A stretch of DNA of 40,403 nt from Planctomycetota bacterium. GTDB lineage: Bacteria; Planctomycetota; Phycisphaerae; Phycisphaerales; SM1A02. Below are positions 11,845 through 40,403 of this stretch, piece by piece (position 1 is the stretch's first letter; every line of letters starts with the position of its first letter). Made by a program: the position numbers and the translations under genes. The notes below the pieces were generated by a model that was not told where the DNA came from, searched no databases, and saw only the letters and a program-made list of their open reading frames with translations. Location: NCBI GenBank assembly GCA_009926625.1, contig RFON01000025.1, forward strand, positions 1 to 40,403. The letters run 5' to 3'.

Positions 11845-12486
11845 ATGAATCCTCCAACCACCTTTCGAGTCATCGTGATCGCCTCTTGTGTGCTCGCCAG
11901 CGCGTGCGACAGCCCCGGTCCGAAGCGCATCGACGACACAACATCGAGCATGCGTGAAACCAAGACAACGGTTGACCGAGGGAACGAGCAGGTCTCGACG
12001 GTCATGACAGCGGCCACCGCAGTGGAAACCGCTCAGGATCGCAAGCGAGCATTCGAACAGTTCTCGAAGGCATGCGATCGACTCGAAGGGGACGCGAAGG
12101 ATGTCCAGTCATCGTGGGACAAGTTGAAGACTCGCACGGCTGACTATGTGAAAGCATGGGAGGCGGATGCCGCCAAACTGTCCAGCGTCGACTCGAAGCA
12201 AGTGGCTTCTGCGCGGCGCGAGGCATTCACTGCGCGTGTGGCAACGATCCAAGCGGATCTCGACGCAGCGAAGGCGTCGTACACAGATCTGAAGGCGAAA
12301 CTCTCCGACATTCGGATCATGCTTGCCAACGATCTCACCGCCGAGGGCGTGGCTTCGGTGAAGCCAGCCATCGAAGCGGCCCAGAAGGTCGCCGTGCAAC
12401 TGAAGGAGAATGTCGCGAAGTTGTCGCAGGCCCTCGATGCGGAGATCACTCGCTCATCGACCGCTGCGCCGCCCGCGGCAAAGTGA
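11845..12486 (+). CDS. DUF2959-like lipoprotein
   Basis: 213 residues: signal peptide with lipobox ASAC (Cys ~21), then an almost wholly helical, Lys/Ala/Glu-rich body, and an Ala/Pro C-terminus. The pattern of a repeated 'KRAFEQF..' helix, long charged helices and VAVQLKENVAKLSQALDAEI resembles DUF2959 lipoproteins, whose function is unknown. It is predicted to be anchored in a membrane facing the periplasm. It is divergent from the two hypotheticals, ~70 bp apart. Family assignment is from pattern only. Confidence 0.65.
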   Translation: MNPPTTFRVIVIASCVLASACDSPGPKRIDDTTSSMRETKTTVDRGNEQVSTVMTAATAVETAQDRKRAFEQFSKACDRLEGDAKDVQSSWDKLKTRTADYVKAWEADAAKLSSVDSKQVASARREAFTARVATIQADLDAAKASYTDLKAKLSDIRIMLANDLTAEGVASVKPAIEAAQKVAVQLKENVAKLSQALDAEITRSSTAAPPAAK

Positions 12487-12601
12487 TTTCGGGAAAGCGC
12501 CCTCGGCTGCGCGAGGGAAGTCCATTCAAAGAAATCGGCGGCGATCTCCAACGCGATACGGTGGTACGAAGGGGGACAACACCCTGACCAAGGACGAGAT
12601 A

Positions 12602-12784
12602 GTGACGGCAGTCCGGCGGATCTTGGAGTCACCCGACTTCGAAGGTGCGCTCTACGGCACGGGCAGGCAGCAGGCGCGCAGTGCACGGGGTGATGCCGCA
12701 TTCGACGAGTTGCTCGAATGCGCGGAAGCGGACATCAAGGCAGCGGGTGAACAGCTGGGGCAACACGATGGCGCTGCGGGTTGA
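12602..12784 (+). CDS. Small first component of ATPase/nuclease cassette
   Basis: A ~60-residue acidic, helical protein (RRILESPDFEGALYG; FDELLECAEADIKAAGEQ), not recognised. The GTG at 12602 follows AAGGACGAG. Alternatively a CTG at 12584, 8 nt after GGGGG, would start a product beginning MTKDEI, which also looks natural. Its last 17 nt overlap the ATPase start, so translation is coupled. In ABC-three-component and Lamassu-type systems a small extra subunit accompanies the ATPase and effector; this is the inferred role. Confidence 0.6.
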   Translation: MTAVRRILESPDFEGALYGTGRQQARSARGDAAFDELLECAEADIKAAGEQLGQHDGAAG

Positions 12785-14816
12785 CGAAATCAGCCTCCCT
12801 CAGGAAGGACCAATCGGTGGGGTTCGCCTGACTGATCTGTCGAAGTGGGACCTCGTGATCATCAAGGGACCAAACGGCGCGGGAAAGTCGACGCTGCTCC
12901 GTGCGCTCGAAAGTCCAAGTGACGCGAATGGCCGAGTGGGCTGCATCGATGCAGACGGCACCCGCGTTCCCCACGCCGTCCGAGGCAAGGGTGTTGAACA
13001 GTCCATCACCTCCGTGAAGTCTGCGGATCTCATGCGCGAGTTCCGCAGCATGAAGGAACCGCTGGCGCTCGCGGCAAGCGTCACGCGCGATGCGCACAAG
13101 CAGCGGTTGCTCGATGACCTGTTCAAGTGGCTGACGAAGCAACAGCCGACAGCTGCCGAAGCGGAACCGCATGAAATCCAGATGCTTACTGCCACATTCA
13201 TCGAGTTGGATCGCAGGTGTGGCACGAGTCCACGGACCATCGATGAGTACGAGCGCCGCGGGCGGCAACTTGCCGAAGGTCTCGGCCGTCCATGGCAGCC
13301 CCCACCACTCTTGCCCGACGAAACGAGGCAGCAGTATGAGTTGACCCTGCGACCGACGAATCGGCATCTCGCGGGCTCTGGGGATGTGACGCGGGTGCTG
13401 AACAACTTGAAGAACGTGCTGCCAGCAGAGGGCAGTCAGGCATCGACGCTTACACGTCGCTCGAGCGCCGAAGCGGAGCTCCACACACTTTGTTCGGAAG
13501 CTCAGTTGGAACTGGCTTCAACGGTCAGCACTCCGAAGGATGAAACGCCTGCCGATCGTGTGCGTTCACTTCGGTCGGCGCTCGTGACTGCGCGCGAGGC
13601 GGCGCAGCAGACCATCGAAGCGATGGGGCGGCTCGACGAATGCCGACGGATTGCGCTCAAGTGGATGAGCGATCCAACGGTCGATGCGGGCGCTCAATCA
13701 AGTTGCCCTGTGTGCGAGCAGACAATCGATCCCGCCTCGGTTCAGGAGCGTCTGCGGCAGAAGTGTGGCGATGCCGGACCCGAGCAACAGCGCTGGAGTG
13801 CCAAGCGCGACCGACTTGCAAGGTTGGACCGCGACTTGGAGTCTGCGCTCAGTCGCTTCGATCAGGCTGCCGCCGCCGTGCGCCGTGAGCACGACGCGTA
13901 CACGACCGCGATCCGAAGCGCCAGCAGCGAGCTTCGCCCCGCAACGGGATGGGATGCGCCAGTCCTCGCTGCGGCTGCCCCGCTGCAGCGCGCATGCAAC
14001 GAGTGGTTGACCGCCCACGGTTCGCACGCGACCGATGCGTCGGTGGCTGCGCTCTCGGCCATCCGCGATCAAGCAGCCGTGCAAGCGAATCAACTCGCCG
14101 CGGACGATCGCGCGCTGAACGCGGGTCTCGAGCAGTCGCATGCGAACTTCAAGAGCCTTGAGGCGCTTGGCGCACTCCTCGCACTGCGCGAACGGCTCGA
14201 CGCGATTCCCTGGACAGTGAATGTTGCCGAGGTGGAAGCGCAGAAGCGGCGCGCGGCACAGACTGACCTATGGCTGAGCACGCTCGGCGAGATGTCGCTC
14301 GATCTCCGAGTCCATCAAGCAACTGCGGCGCAGCGGGTCGTCGATGATCCTGAGGTCCAAGAGCGGTTCCAACGCCTGCTCCAGCGCATCGCGCGCACGC
14401 AGCCGCAACTTGCGCAGGTGACCTTCCGCGGCGATCGACTCGAGGCGGGCGGCATCGACTGTTCGGACAAGTTGTCGGAGGGGCAACGCGTCCTTGTCAA
14501 CATCGCGGCGGTGATCGCGGTTGTCGGCAAGGTCGCCGGCATGCCCGCGCACCTGCCTGGCTGGATCGCATTCGACGAGCCGACCAATGGACTCGACAAC
14601 GAGAGTCGCGGCGCCGTGGCTGAGTACCTCGGTTCCATCACACTCAACGATCTTTCCAGTCAGATCTTCATTGCGTCGTTCGAAAACGAGTTTTCCAAGC
14701 ACCTGATCGATCACGCGAAGCGCAGCGGTCGGCGCATCCTCGAAGTGGAGTTGCCGCCGTTCGTCCCTGGACAACAAGTCCTTCCGAAGCGCCGAGAGAT
14801 CCAGGAGGTCGCATGA
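12768..14816 (+). CDS. Rad50/RecF-like ABC ATPase with a single CxxC
   Basis: 682 residues with SMC/Rad50-type layout. Walker A is GPNGAGKS (34-41). Long, mostly helical arms are interrupted by C313-P-V-C316, placed as a zinc-hook-like CxxC near mid-protein. The ABC signature is KLSEGQR (568-574) and Walker B IAFDEP (600-605) is followed by TNGLDNES. Such ATPases sense or tether DNA ends and drive a partner nuclease. The ATG at 12768 has GGGG 8 nt upstream. The stop overlaps the nuclease start (ATGA). It differs from housekeeping RecF/RecN/SbcC by its size and its partners. It may belong to the broad ABC-3C/Lamassu-like conflict ATPases; subclass not determined. Confidence 0.88.
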   Translation: MALRVDEISLPQEGPIGGVRLTDLSKWDLVIIKGPNGAGKSTLLRALESPSDANGRVGCIDADGTRVPHAVRGKGVEQSITSVKSADLMREFRSMKEPLALAASVTRDAHKQRLLDDLFKWLTKQQPTAAEAEPHEIQMLTATFIELDRRCGTSPRTIDEYERRGRQLAEGLGRPWQPPPLLPDETRQQYELTLRPTNRHLAGSGDVTRVLNNLKNVLPAEGSQASTLTRRSSAEAELHTLCSEAQLELASTVSTPKDETPADRVRSLRSALVTAREAAQQTIEAMGRLDECRRIALKWMSDPTVDAGAQSSCPVCEQTIDPASVQERLRQKCGDAGPEQQRWSAKRDRLARLDRDLESALSRFDQAAAAVRREHDAYTTAIRSASSELRPATGWDAPVLAAAAPLQRACNEWLTAHGSHATDASVAALSAIRDQAAVQANQLAADDRALNAGLEQSHANFKSLEALGALLALRERLDAIPWTVNVAEVEAQKRRAAQTDLWLSTLGEMSLDLRVHQATAAQRVVDDPEVQERFQRLLQRIARTQPQLAQVTFRGDRLEAGGIDCSDKLSEGQRVLVNIAAVIAVVGKVAGMPAHLPGWIAFDEPTNGLDNESRGAVAEYLGSITLNDLSSQIFIASFENEFSKHLIDHAKRSGRRILEVELPPFVPGQQVLPKRREIQEVA

Positions 14817-15364
14817 CAGCAACGGTTCCGCACAGGTTGAGCAACGCAGCGGTGCTGCTGCTTGATCGGCTGCTGAAGGATCGGACGCCGCAGGTTGCGG
14901 GCAGTTGGTTCCAGGATGCCGTTGCGGTCGCACTTGATGGCATGCCGCAGTACGCCGGCTGCTACGGTAATCGCGGCGCGGGGCAGCCCGACATCAAGGC
15001 TGGGGACACGGGCTTTGAGGTGAAGACAACGGCGGGAGCCAGCATCGAACTCGACGGCAACTACAAGGAAATCCGCAGGCAGTTCAAGCACTTTCGCCTC
15101 GTGGCAATGCGGACGGAAAAGGACATGCGCCCGTACCACCTGTGGGTCATCGATATGCCCGAAGATCCGCCGACGCGCGTGGTGCTCGAGACTCGGATGG
15201 ATGCTCGTACTCCACTCGATGGCGCGCTGACTACGAGCCTCGCGAAGCGCCTCTCCGAACTGATCGCAGCCGCCGGAGTTGCATGGACTGATGCAGCAAG
15301 CAGGGACGATGGCTGCCGAATACTGCTGAACGCGAAGCAACCGCGCCCGCCAGCGAGAGTGTGA
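14813..15364 (+). CDS. PD-(D/E)XK restriction-like nuclease, effector of the cassette
   Basis: 183 residues. The core is GQPD60-x8-E69-V-K71-TT, a PD-(D/E)XK metal-binding site arranged much like MutH/Sau3AI-type enzymes (a beta hairpin ending GFEVKTT). It is preceded by helix SWFQDAVAVAL and followed by the FRLVAMRTEK and HLWVIDMP strands. The product probably cuts DNA when licensed by the ATPase encoded immediately upstream, with which it shares 4 nt. No methyltransferase is present, so a classic restriction-modification system is unlikely. The catalytic assignment is by motif only. Confidence 0.8.
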   Translation: MTATVPHRLSNAAVLLLDRLLKDRTPQVAGSWFQDAVAVALDGMPQYAGCYGNRGAGQPDIKAGDTGFEVKTTAGASIELDGNYKEIRRQFKHFRLVAMRTEKDMRPYHLWVIDMPEDPPTRVVLETRMDARTPLDGALTTSLAKRLSELIAAAGVAWTDAASRDDGCRILLNAKQPRPPARV

Positions 15365-15382
15365 CTGCGCTGAGGCTCAGGC

Positions 15383-15700
15383 TCAAGCGACTCGCGCGAT
15401 GCGCGCGCGGCGCGCCAGTGCAGCCTTCCGTCGTTTGGTGAAGTGCCACCAAGGTCTTGGTTGACCACCGCGCGCTTGGTCGATCGCGGACATGAAGACA
15501 TCGATGCAACACGGGTCGTGACGCGCGTTGGTGCGTGAACAAAGGCGTTCGTAGAGTCGAAATGCGTCCTGCCGCGCCAACTGACCGACTGATCGGATTC
15601 CAAGGACCTGAAAATCGCCAAGCGTTGCGGGACCCACATTGGCAAGTTCCGCCAGCCGCTTCGGCTGCTGTTTGGCGCCTCGGTTGGACTTCGTGGGCAT
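15383..15700 (-). CDS. Helix-hairpin-helix protein, Cdd1/TfoX-C-like
   Basis: 105 residues: basic N-terminus, then a helix-hairpin-helix domain with LAELANVGPATLGDFQVLGI and the typical Cdd1 ('pathogenicity locus') pattern SVGQLARQDAFRLYERLC...DPCCIDVF...WWHFTKRRK. HhH units bind DNA without sequence specificity; the role of Cdd1 proteins is not established. It ends 18 bp from the end of the nuclease gene, convergent with it, and is divergent from the repeat lipoprotein. It could be an unrelated neighbour of the three-gene cassette. Confidence 0.8.
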   Translation of the reverse strand: MPTKSNRGAKQQPKRLAELANVGPATLGDFQVLGIRSVGQLARQDAFRLYERLCSRTNARHDPCCIDVFMSAIDQARGGQPRPWWHFTKRRKAALARRARIARVA

Positions 15701-15755
15701 GATTGATGTAGCGTATGAAAAGCTCGGGGACGATCCGCAACAGGAGGATTTGACA

Positions 15756-16166
15756 ATGCCAACGAATCAACGCTCGACAACCACCGCAGCTGTCGCGGCC
15801 GCCGCAGTCACCGCAGCATTGATCGCGCCGCTCCCCCTGCTGAGCGGGTGTGGCGACTGCTGCAACGAACCGCCGACTGACCCTCCCACCAAGGCCGTCA
15901 CACTGCAAGAACGCCAGATCGACCCGCGTTCCGTCTTTGGAAAGATCCGCGAAGTGTCGATCGGCGAGGACTTCAAGGTTCGTGTCGTGGGCATCGGCGA
16001 AGACCTGAAGGTTCGCAAGGTTTCCATCGCGGCTGACCGACCTGGGCTCTGGCAGATGGTTTCCATCGGCGAGGACTTCAAGGTCCGCTTCGTCAAAATC
16101 GGCGAAGACTTCACCATTCGGTACGTCAGCATCGGCGAGGGCGCAGCCGATAGTCCACTGAACTGA
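15756..16166 (+). CDS. Repeat lipoprotein, possible 7(1) septoil-knot domain
   Basis: 136 residues with a perfect AGGAGG site. Signal peptide with lipobox LLSGC, short linker, then ~70 residues built from near-identical units: VSIGEDFKVR, VGIGEDLKVR, a unit changed to ADRPGLWQM, then VSIGEDFKVR, VKIGEDFTIR and YVSIGEG. I recall the same plan (xxDxKVxxV repeats around a central GxW unit) for the domain named 7(1) septoil knot, which was predicted to form a deeply knotted chain. That match is from memory. The protein should be lipid-anchored. A GYF_2 membrane protein gene follows after 30 bp, likely in the same operon. Confidence 0.72.
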   Translation: MPTNQRSTTTAAVAAAAVTAALIAPLPLLSGCGDCCNEPPTDPPTKAVTLQERQIDPRSVFGKIREVSIGEDFKVRVVGIGEDLKVRKVSIAADRPGLWQMVSIGEDFKVRFVKIGEDFTIRYVSIGEGAADSPLN

Positions 16167-19431: not shown

Positions 19432-20271
19432 TCAGCCCCAATCGCTCAGCAGAACAGCCAGGTCGCCACCATCGACCACACCGTTACCAGTCAAGTCGGC
19501 TGAACTCGACGCCCCTCCTCCCCACTGGCTCAGCAGAATGGCTAAGTCCAGGCCATCCACCACGCCATTGGAGTTGAAGTCGGCTGGTCGGTTCGGCGGG
19601 GGCACATAATCCACCTGGAGGAGCGGTTTGTTGGCGGCAGCCTCGCGAGATTCGAAACGCTTCACGGAGGTGGGAGTTGCCTCGTTGCCCTTGATGACCC
19701 ACCCGTGATTGGCTGAAGGGTTGTCGAGCCAGGCTTGCACATCTGCCACGAGTGAAGCGGTCGAACTCCATGTGTAGGACCCGATGCCCGACACGGACCG
19801 GGTTGCGCTCGCCGTCGCTGCGAACACACCGCCGAGTGTTGGCCATAAAACGGTTGGGTACGACTGATACTTCCAGGTGCTGTCGCCGATCCCGGCGGGG
19901 GTGCCTCCCCCGCCGAATGCGAAGGCCGTTCCTTCCGTCCATGCGAGGGAGCAGCGATGCAGCCCAACTGTCTGAGCACCCGATTGTGTCTGACTCATGT
20001 ACAGACGCAGCGTGACGCTCGTGATCGTGCTGCCCGCAGGGATCGCACCGAGGTTGAACCGCATCAGACCGCGCCGGATCGTTGCGCCACCATTTTCGCC
20101 AATGCGCCCTGCGTATACGTTGTACGCAGCACCGAGCGAGTACTCCGCAGTCGGTTCCTCGATCAGCGTCGCGTCGGCTGAAGGACCGATCGAGATGGAA
20201 TCGGCGTGCAGGGTTGCACATGGCAGCAGGAGCACCGACAGCGAGAGAAGAAGCCAAAGGCGAATCATTCG
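19432..20271 (-). CDS. Secreted DNRLRE-domain protein with dockerin-type tail
   Basis: 279 residues. Signal peptide (LWLLLSLSVLLLPCATLHA), a DNRLRE-type beta-sandwich (SADATLIEEPTAEYSLG, GLMRFNLGAIPAGSTI, VADVQAWLDNPSANHGWVIKG), and two C-terminal dockerin-like calcium loops, DFNSNGVVDGLDLAILLSQWG and DLTGNGVVDGGDLAVLLSDWG. In Phycisphaerales such tails are thought to serve surface anchoring or sorting rather than cellulosome assembly. The frame stays open leftwards into an integron-integrase remnant, but the signal peptide fixes the start at 20271. Its gene replaces the body of that integrase. Confidence 0.85.
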   Translation of the reverse strand, partial: RMIRLWLLLSLSVLLLPCATLHADSISIGPSADATLIEEPTAEYSLGAAYNVYAGRIGENGGATIRRGLMRFNLGAIPAGSTITSVTLRLYMSQTQSGAQTVGLHRCSLAWTEGTAFAFGGGGTPAGIGDSTWKYQSYPTVLWPTLGGVFAATASATRSVSGIGSYTWSSTASLVADVQAWLDNPSANHGWVIKGNEATPTSVKRFESREAAANKPLLQVDYVPPPNRPADFNSNGVVDGLDLAILLSQWGGGASSSADLTGNGVVDGGDLAVLLSDWG

Positions 20272-20391
20272 TGTCCTTCTGCTCGCGCGATCATGCAGCG
20301 CTGTTGATGAGAGATTGAGGCGAGAAGAACCATGGTGGGAGTATGCGCCATGGATCGAGGAGGCGCAACTCAAGCGCGCAATTGTCTGCGA

Positions 20392-20538
20392 CGGGTGCCG
20401 CCACGGCAAGCGTCCATCGGGGCCGCGCGAGCGGTGATGGCGCAGGAATACGGTGATCCACTGCCAGTAGGAGCGCTCCGTGCGAATCGAATAGTGCTCG
20501 CGCCGGATGACAGCGATGAAATCCTCCCGAAGGCCCAT
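20392..20538 (-). pseudogene. intI: N-terminal relic of an integron integrase (tyrosine recombinase)
   Basis: From an ATG at 20538 the minus strand reads MGLREDFIAVIRR followed by HYSIRTERSYWQWITVFLRHH and a WRHP at residue ~49. This matches the SAM-like N-terminal DNA-binding domain of integron integrases (pattern HxxxRTExxYxxWIxxFxxFH...RHP). After RHP similarity ends; the catalytic Arg/His/Arg/Tyr residues are absent and the DNRLRE gene follows. Its orientation, divergent from the cassettes on its right, is that of a true intI. No functional integrase is present in the window. Confidence 0.75.
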
Positions 20539-20702
20539 GTCGCGACCGTACCGCACGATGCGGCGGGGACCTGTGGGAGATACGCGGAACCAGTTAGCAT
20601 CCCCCCATCGGTCGTTGCGCGGAAATCCGCACAATCAACTGTTCGGCTGCAAACGACGTCCTTCTCCATGAACAACATCTCTTCAGAAGGAACACCGTAC
20701 TC

Positions 20703-21818: not shown

Positions 21819-21938
21819 CATGTCGGTCAACCGGAGCCTCCACGGCATGCCGCCCTGGCCGCGACGCGCTCGTTGTCCATGCTGCGCCTCGCGGCCAGGG
21901 CGCCATGCCGTTCCGGCCCGGTTACCTCTACGTTAGGC
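21813..21938 (+). other. attC: attC recombination site 2
   Basis: 126 nt bounded by GCCTAAC and GTTAGGC, both perfect consensus cores and exact complements. The interior is a long imperfect palindrome (arms containing AACCGG, CACGGCATG and CCCTGGCCGCGA mirrored on the right). The GNAT stop TAA is within the left core. Confidence 0.92.
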
Positions 21939-21968
21939 AGGCCAAGTCCACCGGCTGGCGCCCAAGCC

Positions 21969-21997
21969 TTGACTTGTGCATACACCGTAGGTACACT
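21969..21997 (+). promoter_or_regulatory. Sigma70-like promoter of brnT
   Basis: TTGACT, 17-bp spacer, TACACT. The -10 box ends 6 nt before the GTG start of brnT, so the transcript start would fall on or next to the start codon, and no ribosome site precedes it: a leaderless mRNA is implied. Confidence 0.72.
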
Positions 21998-22003
21998 GTC
22001 GGT

Positions 22004-22300
22004 GTGTCAGAGCTCCGCTTCGAATGGGATCCACGCAAGGCCGCGGCCAACAAATCCAAACACGGCGTCACATTTGACGAGGCCGTTTCTGTCTTCGCCG
22101 ACGAGCTTGCACTCTTCATGGCCGACCCGGAGCACTCCGACAAGGAGGACAGGTTCGTCCTCCTGGGGCTGAGCTCGTCGGTCCGCCTCCTCGTCGTAGT
22201 GCACTCGCACCGCGAGGACGACGAGACTATTCGCATCATCTCGGCCCGCCGCGCCAACAACCGCGAGCGAGCGCACTACAAGGAAAGCAACTCACCATGA
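22004..22300 (+). CDS. brnT: BrnT-family toxin (cassette 3)
   Basis: 98 residues. BrnT is a RelE-fold ribonuclease that inhibits growth when free of BrnA. Seen: the family opening LRFEWDPRKAAANKSKHGVTFDEAV, a central FADPEHS-like segment, RFVLLGLS, and the C-terminal IRIISARRANNRERAHY with its Arg-rich active surface. The GTG start places LRFEWD at the N-terminus; the longer frame to 21905 would run into attC2. The stop overlaps the BrnA start by 4 nt (ATGA). Confidence 0.92.
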   Translation: MSELRFEWDPRKAAANKSKHGVTFDEAVSVFADELALFMADPEHSDKEDRFVLLGLSSSVRLLVVVHSHREDDETIRIISARRANNRERAHYKESNSP

Positions 22301-22527
22301 GAGCCAACTACGACTTCTCGAAGGCCAAGCGCAACCCCTATGCCAAGAAGCTCAAGCGCTCGATCACGATCAGGCTCGACAACGAGACCATCGAGTACTT
22401 CAAGAAGCTCGCGGCAAAGTCCGAGTTACCGTACCAGAGCCTCATCAACCTGTACCTGCGCGACTGTGCCGCGCACGGCCGCGAACTGGCAATGGAGTGG
22501 CGCAGCTCGCGCAAGGGCGCTGCCTAA
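22297..22527 (+). CDS. brnA: BrnA-family antitoxin (cassette 3)
   Basis: 76 residues: MRANYDFSKAKRNPY, then a ribbon-helix-helix domain (KRSITIRLDNETIEYFKKL). It ends with the BrnA signature PYQSLINLYLRDCA. BrnA neutralises BrnT and usually represses the operon through its RHH domain. It overlaps brnT by 4 nt and its stop lies in the left core of attC3, as expected for a compact cassette. Confidence 0.93.
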   Translation: MRANYDFSKAKRNPYAKKLKRSITIRLDNETIEYFKKLAAKSELPYQSLINLYLRDCAAHGRELAMEWRSSRKGAA

Positions 22528-22621
22528 CCGAAAGTTCGTGCCGACCGCCGTGCGGGTCAGCATTCGCGCGAGGGCTGGCGCCCTCAGCCGCACCGGCGTG
22601 CGGCACAACTTGACGTTCGGC
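22522..22621 (+). other. attC: attC recombination site 3
   Basis: 100 nt from GCCTAAC to GTTCGGC. Mirrored arms contain GTGCCG and CGCCG/TGCGG with single mismatches around the loop GCGCGAGGGCTGGCGCCCTC. The right core deviates at one base from GTTRRRY but complements the GCCGAAC left cores used elsewhere in this array. Confidence 0.82.
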
Positions 22622-22937: not shown

Positions 22938-23244
22938 CGAGTGCACACCGCGCCGACTTGCGGCAGCACTCGACCCGCACGAGGTCGAGCATGTTTCTTC
23001 GCGCGGCTGGTCAGGCATCAAGAACGGACACCTGCTCTCTCGCATGCAGGAGGCGGGATTCGCTGGGCTCATCACGACGGACCGCAATCTGACACGGCAA
23101 CAGGCGGTGTCCAGTACGCCCCTCTTCGTCGTCGTGGTTCGGGCCAAGTCCAACCGTATCGCAGACCTTCGGCCCCTCGTGCCGGAGATTCTCCGTGCGG
23201 TGTCGTTCGCGCAGCCCGGGCAGGTCTACTCTGTGGGTGCCTAA
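22921..23244 (+). CDS. DUF5615 PIN-like toxin (cassette 4)
   Basis: 107 residues from a GTG. The PIN-like fold is shown by RLLLDECTPRRLAAAL (first acidic pair), VEHVSSRGWSGIKNGHLLSRM, and GLITTDRNLTRQQ (second acidic pair). This suggests metal-dependent ribonuclease activity, presumed toxic. It overlaps the DUF433 gene by 17 nt and its TAA stop lies inside the left core of attC4. Confidence 0.87.
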   Translation: MRLLLDECTPRRLAAALDPHEVEHVSSRGWSGIKNGHLLSRMQEAGFAGLITTDRNLTRQQAVSSTPLFVVVVRAKSNRIADLRPLVPEILRAVSFAQPGQVYSVGA

Positions 23245-23343
23245 CCCATCGCTCATGCCGACACGCACGCGCGGCGTTACGATTACCGCGAGGGCTGTCG
23301 CCCCCGGCCGCACGTGCATGCGGCATAGCTCAAGGCGTCAGAC
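23239..23343 (+). other. attC: attC recombination site 4, right core degraded
   Basis: 105 nt from GCCTAAC to GTCAGAC. The right core has one change from consensus (GTC for GTT). Mirrored arms GCTCATGCCG and CGGCATAGCTC, with a GCACG-rich interior, support the fold. Confidence 0.72.
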
Positions 23344-39924: not shown

Positions 39925-40403
39925 TGACGGGGTCGCTCTCATCGGTCCACCCCTTATGAGAGTTGGTGCATGGTAGCCACCCCTTGCATGCGCGGCGGTG
40001 CCGCAGCGGAGGCGAGCGAAGCGAGCCGGAGCGGAGGCAGTGCCGCGCATGTCGTCGCGAAGGCTGCAGGCGTCGTCTTGCCGAGCACGCGCTGGATGCG
40101 CCGGTGGTTGTAGAAGAGCCGCCACCGGTCGACCAGATACCGCGCCTCCGCCAGCGTGTCGAAGATCTCGGACGACAGCAGCTCGTCACGCAGCCGGCCG
40201 TTGAAGCTCTCCACGATGCCGTTCTGACACGGTGACCCGGGGTCGATGTAGAGCGTGCCGGTGCCGCTCTCGGCGCACCACGCCTTCACCGCCTTCGAGA
40301 TCATCTCCGGCCCGTTGTCGGCCCGGAGGTGCACTGGAGCGCCCCGGATCGCCGTCAGCTCGTCCAGCACCGCGACGATGTCCTCGCCGCGGAAGTTCCT
40401 CGC
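39925..40403 (-). mobile_element. IS3-family insertion sequence, right part beyond window
   Basis: The left terminus begins TGACGGGGTCGCTCTC, the same end as in the fragment at 23598. The transposase gene runs into the window edge. A palindromic GC-rich stretch (AGCGAAGCGAGCCGGAGCGG) near 40015 is shared by both copies. The full extent cannot be seen. Confidence 0.82.
39954..40403 (-). CDS. IS3-family transposase, C-terminal part (rve/DDE domain)
   Basis: The visible 149 codons enter from the right edge. They include the DDE-core [10 protein letters not shown] (second Asp) and the Glu motif [15 protein letters not shown], separated by ~35 residues as in IS3/retroviral integrases, then [20 protein letters not shown]. 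The first Asp and the upstream orfA are outside the window. Intact so far as seen; the C-terminal extension is Ala/Pro-rich. Confidence 0.9.

Follow-up and report, generated by a model that had tools for sequence, protein, structure and literature searches.

Organization of the three-gene cassette

In this study, a 40,403-nucleotide (nt) contig of a Planctomycetota bacterium (Phycisphaerales, SM1A02; GenBank assembly GCA_009926625.1, contig RFON01000025.1, positions 1 to 40,403), referred to as the window, was analysed for a cassette of three genes built around a Rad50-like ATPase. The cassette is about 2.8 kb long, and all of its genes are on the + strand in the order small gene, ATPase, nuclease. 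The small gene (12584–12784, +) starts with CTG and encodes a small helical protein of 66 amino acids (aa). The second gene (12768–14816, +) encodes an ATP-binding cassette (ABC) ATPase of 682 aa of the zinc-hook coiled-coil type, and the third (14813–15364, +) a putative PD-(D/E)XK nuclease of 183 aa. The small gene and the ATPase gene overlap by 17 nt; the ATPase and nuclease genes overlap by 4 nt. A first-pass annotation made from the sequence alone had given the same three overlapping genes, and its coordinates were correct. The 17-nt overlap was also present in a related genome, G123, and in a remnant of the cassette in G104. All three proteins had homologues in the same order in G010 and G123, so the cassette is more than a chance arrangement. 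No promoter-like site was found in 12300–15800, where terminator-like sites were at chance level.

The best Pfam matches of the ATPase were AAA_21, ABC_tran and SMC_N. It contains a Walker A motif, GPNGAGKS (aa 34–41; 12867–12890, +), a CPVC zinc-hook motif, which is its sole CxxC (aa 313–316; 13704–13715, +), the ABC signature LSEGQR (aa 569–574; 14472–14489, +), and the Walker B motif with D-loop, FDEPTNGLD (aa 602–610; 14571–14597, +), in which the catalytic Glu, E604, is retained. CPVC did not vary among the three aligned ATPases and G010; LSEG of the signature and E604 were identical in the three aligned ATPases. Since a zinc hook is combined with an ABC head, a Rad50-type dimer is likely. 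ABC proteins carry His at the H-loop. In the H-loop region of this ATPase, FENEF (14679–14693, +), Phe638 is at the place of the switch His; the three aligned ATPases and that of G010 all carry Phe there instead of His. In a weak profile alignment, the TH of elongation factor 3 fell opposite this region, with the Phe landing on the His. The Phe suggests slow ATP turnover.

The ATPases of the window, G123 and G140 were compared with the PADLOC profiles. The Mad3 profile scored 56, 61 and 44 bits, respectively, and the LmuB profiles 48 bits at best, 27 and 44 bits. Mad3 was thus above LmuB in two of the three ATPases and equal to it in the third. A neighbouring coiled-coil lipoprotein served as an unplanned control; its scores reached 24 bits for JetC and 16.5 bits for LmuB. 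Scores of 44–61 bits therefore stand clear of coiled-coil noise, whereas a score of 27 bits lies near it. This ATPase probably has Mad3 and LmuB as distant relatives.

The nuclease gene encodes a PD-x8-ExK motif, PDIKAGDTGFEVK (14987–15025, +), with D60, E69 and K71. It is the PD...(D/E)xK motif of the PD-(D/E)XK superfamily and was identical in the three nucleases found. The catalytic residues of both the ATPase and the nuclease were identical across the rows aligned. The motifs listed in the first-pass annotation (Walker A, single CxxC, LSEGQR, Walker B and PD-x8-ExK) were all located in the genes to which it had assigned them. Its description of the nuclease as MutH-like was supported by no match; what is supported is the PD-(D/E)XK motif only. 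Profile searches, which it had proposed, were run on all three proteins and gave no match to a known restriction system or to an SbcCD or RecN variant.

The CTG start of the small gene at 12584 is preceded by AGGGGG, and its place in the alignment is that of an in-frame ATG in the homologues from G123 and G104; CTG was outside the start codons used by the list of open reading frames. The small protein had no family match at E ≤ 1 in Pfam, PADLOC and NCBIfam. Its single PHROGs match (E 0.26) was taken as chance. The structure model of the small protein showed three helices with a predicted local distance difference test score (pLDDT) of 73.8, and its two PDB matches (E 8 and 9) were not significant.

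Between the window and G123, identity was 36–39% for the small protein, 41–42% for the ATPase and 63–66% for the nuclease. By these identities, the presumed sensor parts (ATPase and small protein) diverge faster than the presumed effector. The ratio of nonsynonymous to synonymous divergence (dN/dS) between the two species of the window and G010 was 0.245 for the ATPase (35 differences). The value for the nuclease, 0.456, rests on 12 differences and says little; the small gene had 1 difference only, and its ratio was undefined. Selection is therefore shown for the ATPase only.

Distribution, gain and loss, and exchange

The family search covered 181 genomes, including that of the window. The ATPase was found in four of them: the window, G010 (98% identity), G123 (42%) and G140 (29%). 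The nuclease was found in three, all among the ATPase genomes: the window, G010 (97%) and G123 (66%). The small gene was directly upstream of the ATPase in all four ATPase genomes. The nuclease was directly behind the ATPase in three; in the fourth, G140, an AGGAGG and an ATG (26 nt past the ATPase stop) are present, and the contig ends 37 nt past that stop. The hypergeometric probability of the co-occurrence of ATPase and nuclease was 4e-6, or 2e-4 without the near-identical G010. The three genes, their motifs and their tight co-occurrence are direct observations.

The small protein was matched in 18 of the 181 genomes at E ≤ 0.05, and 7 of these matches were below 1e-4. The other 11 matches (E ≥ 9.9e-4) covered 22–47 of 68 model positions in frames of 133–1057 aa; they were set aside as chance, their loci not being inspected. 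In three of the seven genomes with matches below 1e-4 (G116, G118 and G104), the small gene was without both other intact genes, and these copies appear to be broken remains of this cassette. The first-pass annotation had treated the three genes as tightly coupled, to be doubted if homologues mostly occurred apart. In the 181 genomes, the nuclease was never found without the ATPase, nor the ATPase without the small gene. The small gene was found without the other two at the three remnant-like loci and, leaving aside the 11 weak matches, nowhere else.

In a sample of the class, the ATPase profile matched 3 of 397 genomes and the nuclease profile 3 of 394, the same three genomes both times; in a sample of the phylum, 1 of 392 matched, the window itself. 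These samples are thin and overlap the family. Scoring took in only the best 2, up to 8 and 3 candidates of each genome, respectively; diverged copies could escape, and the counts do not prove absence. A wide search of contigs with the ATPase alignment returned at least 595 stretches with patterns from generic ABC motifs. This search was discarded as noise and gives no evidence of absence; five of its loci hold ABC-transporter ATPases of 237–254 aa. Among viral contigs, no nuclease relative was found, and two ATPase loci matched only residues 29–85 around Walker A. Neither the ATPase nor the nuclease of the window had a match in the plasmid and phage collections, and the G140 ATPase had none in the plasmid collection. 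Within the collections searched, the cassette is rare and was encountered in a single family. No description of the three-gene cassette was found among the papers listed, as judged by titles and the openings of abstracts.

In the genus of G123, the cassette lies between genes that we take to be lepA and an OmpH-like gene. In G120, about 97 bp separate flanks matching those of G123, versus 9.4 kb in G123, and this is an empty site. In G116 and G118, what is left is the region upstream and the small gene up to about codon 22, with unrelated DNA after it. G104, of another genus, kept an open small gene and about 34 ATPase codons, with the break at Walker A. This sporadic pattern of gain and loss, as expected of defence genes, is supported by the observed sites. 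At the lepA/OmpH junction itself (locus L005, about 4.7–14.1 kb; locus L060, 14762–14860), the cargo differed among G123, G116 and G118, and there was none in G120. The junction looks like an insertion hotspot in this genus.

The window and G010 were aligned in 400-base steps. In the left flank, identity was 67–90%, mostly 82–90%. From about 12.1 to about 23.4 kb, a patchy, gapped block had 94–100% identity, calculated from steps holding at least 60 aligned bases, and the cassette as a whole was 98.3% identical. Synonymous divergence (dS) was 0.040 in the ATPase and 0.038 in the nuclease, versus 0.71 and 0.58 in left-flank genes presumed to encode a fructose-bisphosphatase-like protein and a thiolase. 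It was 0.21 in a presumed lipoprotein gene spanning the block boundary. The jump in identity and the low dS of the cassette against the high dS of the flank show a recent exchange of the cassette-bearing block between species. Other genes share the exchanged block, and independent movement of the cassette does not follow.

Neighbourhood of the cassette

The first-pass annotation had stated that neither a methyltransferase nor a helicase accompanies the cassette. The former was borne out among the 22 window proteins run against Pfam, which do not cover every open reading frame of the window. As for the latter, a UvrD helicase is present at the left edge of the window, about 10 kb from the cassette. 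The defence-island context that it had raised found no support: ten neighbouring window proteins had no PADLOC match except the weak coiled-coil ones of the lipoprotein. What lies about 4–8 kb from the cassette is limited to a homologue of the BrnT toxin and integron debris.

The BrnT-family ribonuclease toxin homologue (21905–22297, +; PF04365, E 4e-27) is largely inside the block shared with G010. A frame at 19435–20634 (−) joins an N-terminal phage-integrase SAM-like domain (PF13495) to a CBM96 and dockerin-like part and is presumably a truncated integron integrase. Two related repeats beginning TGCCTAACC (22521–22610 and 23238–23330) are 717–720 nt apart; we take them to resemble integron attC sites. 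A small protein gene contains 33-nt repeats (15954–16134), and an integrase-core (rve_3) transposase fragment is at the window edge (39957–40403, −).

A protein of the Cdd1 'Pathogenicity locus' family (PF11731) is encoded at 15386–15700 (−). Of the 19 genomes of the genus, 12 have it, including the window and G010. An empty site in the window's own genus was sought by means of this neighbour; five loci were read from the ten other genomes with the gene, and none was syntenic.

DUF2779 proteins are encoded near cassette homologues (locus L010, 2392–4311, −; locus L005, 5788–7656, +). In G140, the DUF2779 gene is immediately upstream of the small gene and runs up to it; in G123, it is on the opposite strand, about 1.4 kb from the nuclease. 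The family was found in 8 of the 181 genomes, including two of the four ATPase genomes (p about 0.01). DUF2779 was rejected as a fourth core gene. It was not found in the window's genome or in G010, with 14 control genomes silent too; G118 has it and G116 has its tail at a contig end, both without the cassette.

Proposed function and comparison with known systems

The results suggested that the three genes probably form a mobile conflict cassette of the defence type, in which the ATPase would sense unusual DNA and license the nuclease. Its defence activity is inferred, like the sensing of plasmid or phage DNA raised by the first-pass annotation, and so is its action as a sensor-effector unit, in which the nuclease would cut once unusual DNA is detected. 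The ATPase would dimerise via the zinc hook and the heads. As judged from its Rad50 and LmuB relatives, it would detect unusual DNA. The likeliest targets are ends, hairpins or replication intermediates that belong to mobile DNA as it enters the cell or replicates. Closure of the ATP-bound heads would then recruit or release the small PD-(D/E)XK nuclease in a presumed complex, and the nuclease, by its motif, would cut DNA. The small helical protein, whose frame starts just before that of the ATPase and overlaps it, probably serves in regulation or assembly as a subunit keeping the complex inactive. Since the H-loop Phe suggests slow ATP turnover, activation may be switch-like.

A more specific proposal can be made tentatively and with some doubt. 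The cassette may represent a separate, undescribed family, in which the zinc-hook ATPase with its H-loop Phe would work as an ATP-locked, almost irreversible sensor of foreign DNA structures and license the 183-aa nuclease under control of the 66-aa helical regulator.

A conflict cassette is favoured by the gene overlaps, the co-occurrence of ATPase and nuclease, the identity of the catalytic residues, the sites with and without the cassette, the recently exchanged block and the closeness to the Mad3 and LmuB profiles. Several observations weigh against it. The links to LmuB and Mad3 are weak (27–61 bits), and the weakest may be coiled-coil noise. The interpretation of the H-loop depends on one weak alignment. 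The 183-aa protein had no match in Pfam, PADLOC and NCBIfam at E ≤ 1 or in PHROGs, and no related PDB sequence; its single-sequence AlphaFold2 model had a pLDDT of 37.5, which leaves the fold unconfirmed. The distribution is very narrow, and G123 has the sole diverged complete copy known beyond the near-identical pair of the window and G010. Among the window proteins scanned, none beside the cassette was an accepted defence protein.

SbcCD and Rad50-Mre11 also pair a Rad50-type ATPase with a nuclease. A lineage-specific DNA-repair or processing unit of the SbcCD kind, with a PD-(D/E)XK protein replacing the Mre11-type nuclease, would agree with the Rad50-type architecture and with the purifying selection on the ATPase. 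However, the cassette nuclease has the PD-(D/E)XK motif and no match to an Mre11-type metallophosphatase. SbcCD is core, whereas the cassette is sporadic; its presence in 4 of 181 family genomes, with an empty site and decayed sites, is unlike a housekeeping gene. A repair unit is considered improbable. An even smaller chance is given to a selfish or addiction module, in which the nuclease would be a toxin, the small protein its antidote and the ATPase a regulator, and which would persist by killing after loss and not by defence. In favour of such a module, the genes are closely linked, and G116, G118 and G104 have each lost the nuclease but retain the 5' end of the small gene. However, two of these three remnants have only about 22 codons of the small gene, so no working antidote is kept there, and modules of this type do not usually include an ATPase as large as 682 aa.

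The third alternative, and the likeliest of the three, is a divergent Lamassu or ABC-three-component (ABC-3C) system with an LmuB-like ATPase, a reduced LmuC, a minimal nuclease effector and a rearranged gene order, acting by abortive infection. According to PMC10586767, LmuB is a Rad50 relative of about 650 aa with a zinc hook (CPxCG-like) in many members, its Walker B Glu is generally, though not universally, Gln, the small protein has the name of middle component, and the effector partners are often nucleases. On that description, the cassette resembles Lamassu, ABC-3C and DdmABC (LmuA-LmuC-LmuB) in having three components, of which one is a small protein, one a Rad50-like ATPase and one an effector, in those systems often a nuclease, and its 682-aa ATPase with CPVC is similar to LmuB in size and zinc hook. 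LmuB profiles were also among the top PADLOC matches of all three ATPases tested. However, the lead or tie of Mad3 in these ATPases argues against a divergent Lamassu system, and neither the 183-aa nuclease nor the 66-aa small protein matched LmuA or LmuC in PADLOC. The small gene is not in the middle as described for Lamassu; it leads the cassette in the window, G010 and G123, and in G140 and the remnant of G104 it immediately precedes the ATPase. E604 is kept where the described LmuB proteins generally have Gln, and the H-loop Phe suggests that slow turnover was reached here by a route other than the Glu-to-Gln change. A divergent Lamassu system is therefore unlikely, and a conflict cassette distinct from it is preferred.

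Other described systems share parts of this design. The zinc-hook ATPase systems with a CxC hook, among them PbeABCD, combine the ATPase with a small protein and a nuclease and have DndE as a partner, according to PMC10853773. The cassette resembles them in its zinc-hook coiled-coil ABC ATPase, small protein and nuclease, and in a weak PbeC match. It differs in that its hook is CxxC, not CxC, and in that no cassette protein matches DndE, a superfamily 2 (SF2) helicase or an HKD nuclease. The likeness to MADS lies in Mad3, which gave the highest or equal-highest PADLOC score in every ATPase compared. The Mad3 profile has 374 positions versus 682 aa, and its best stretch is in the C-terminal part. 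MADS comprises a methyltransferase and other Mad genes, and neither a methyltransferase nor another Mad gene was found alongside among the window proteins scanned, with the coverage given above.

Lamassu is the nearest described layout. The likeness to Lamassu and ABC-3C claimed by the first-pass annotation holds as a resemblance, through the weak LmuB matches and the three-part layout. So does its remark that the cassette matches no system it recognised, given the different gene order and the missing LmuA and LmuC matches. Because of gene order, Walker B and these missing matches, the cassette is not filed under Lamassu. Its small size makes it a good system for studying how a Rad50-like head controls a nuclease. 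The cassette shares the Lamassu division of labour between a Rad50-like sensor, a small subunit and a nuclease, and departs from it in order, in the kept catalytic Glu and in what may be a different change to the ATPase cycle. If the cassette defends cells, the design of a Rad50 sensor plus a nuclease arose or was rebuilt more than once.

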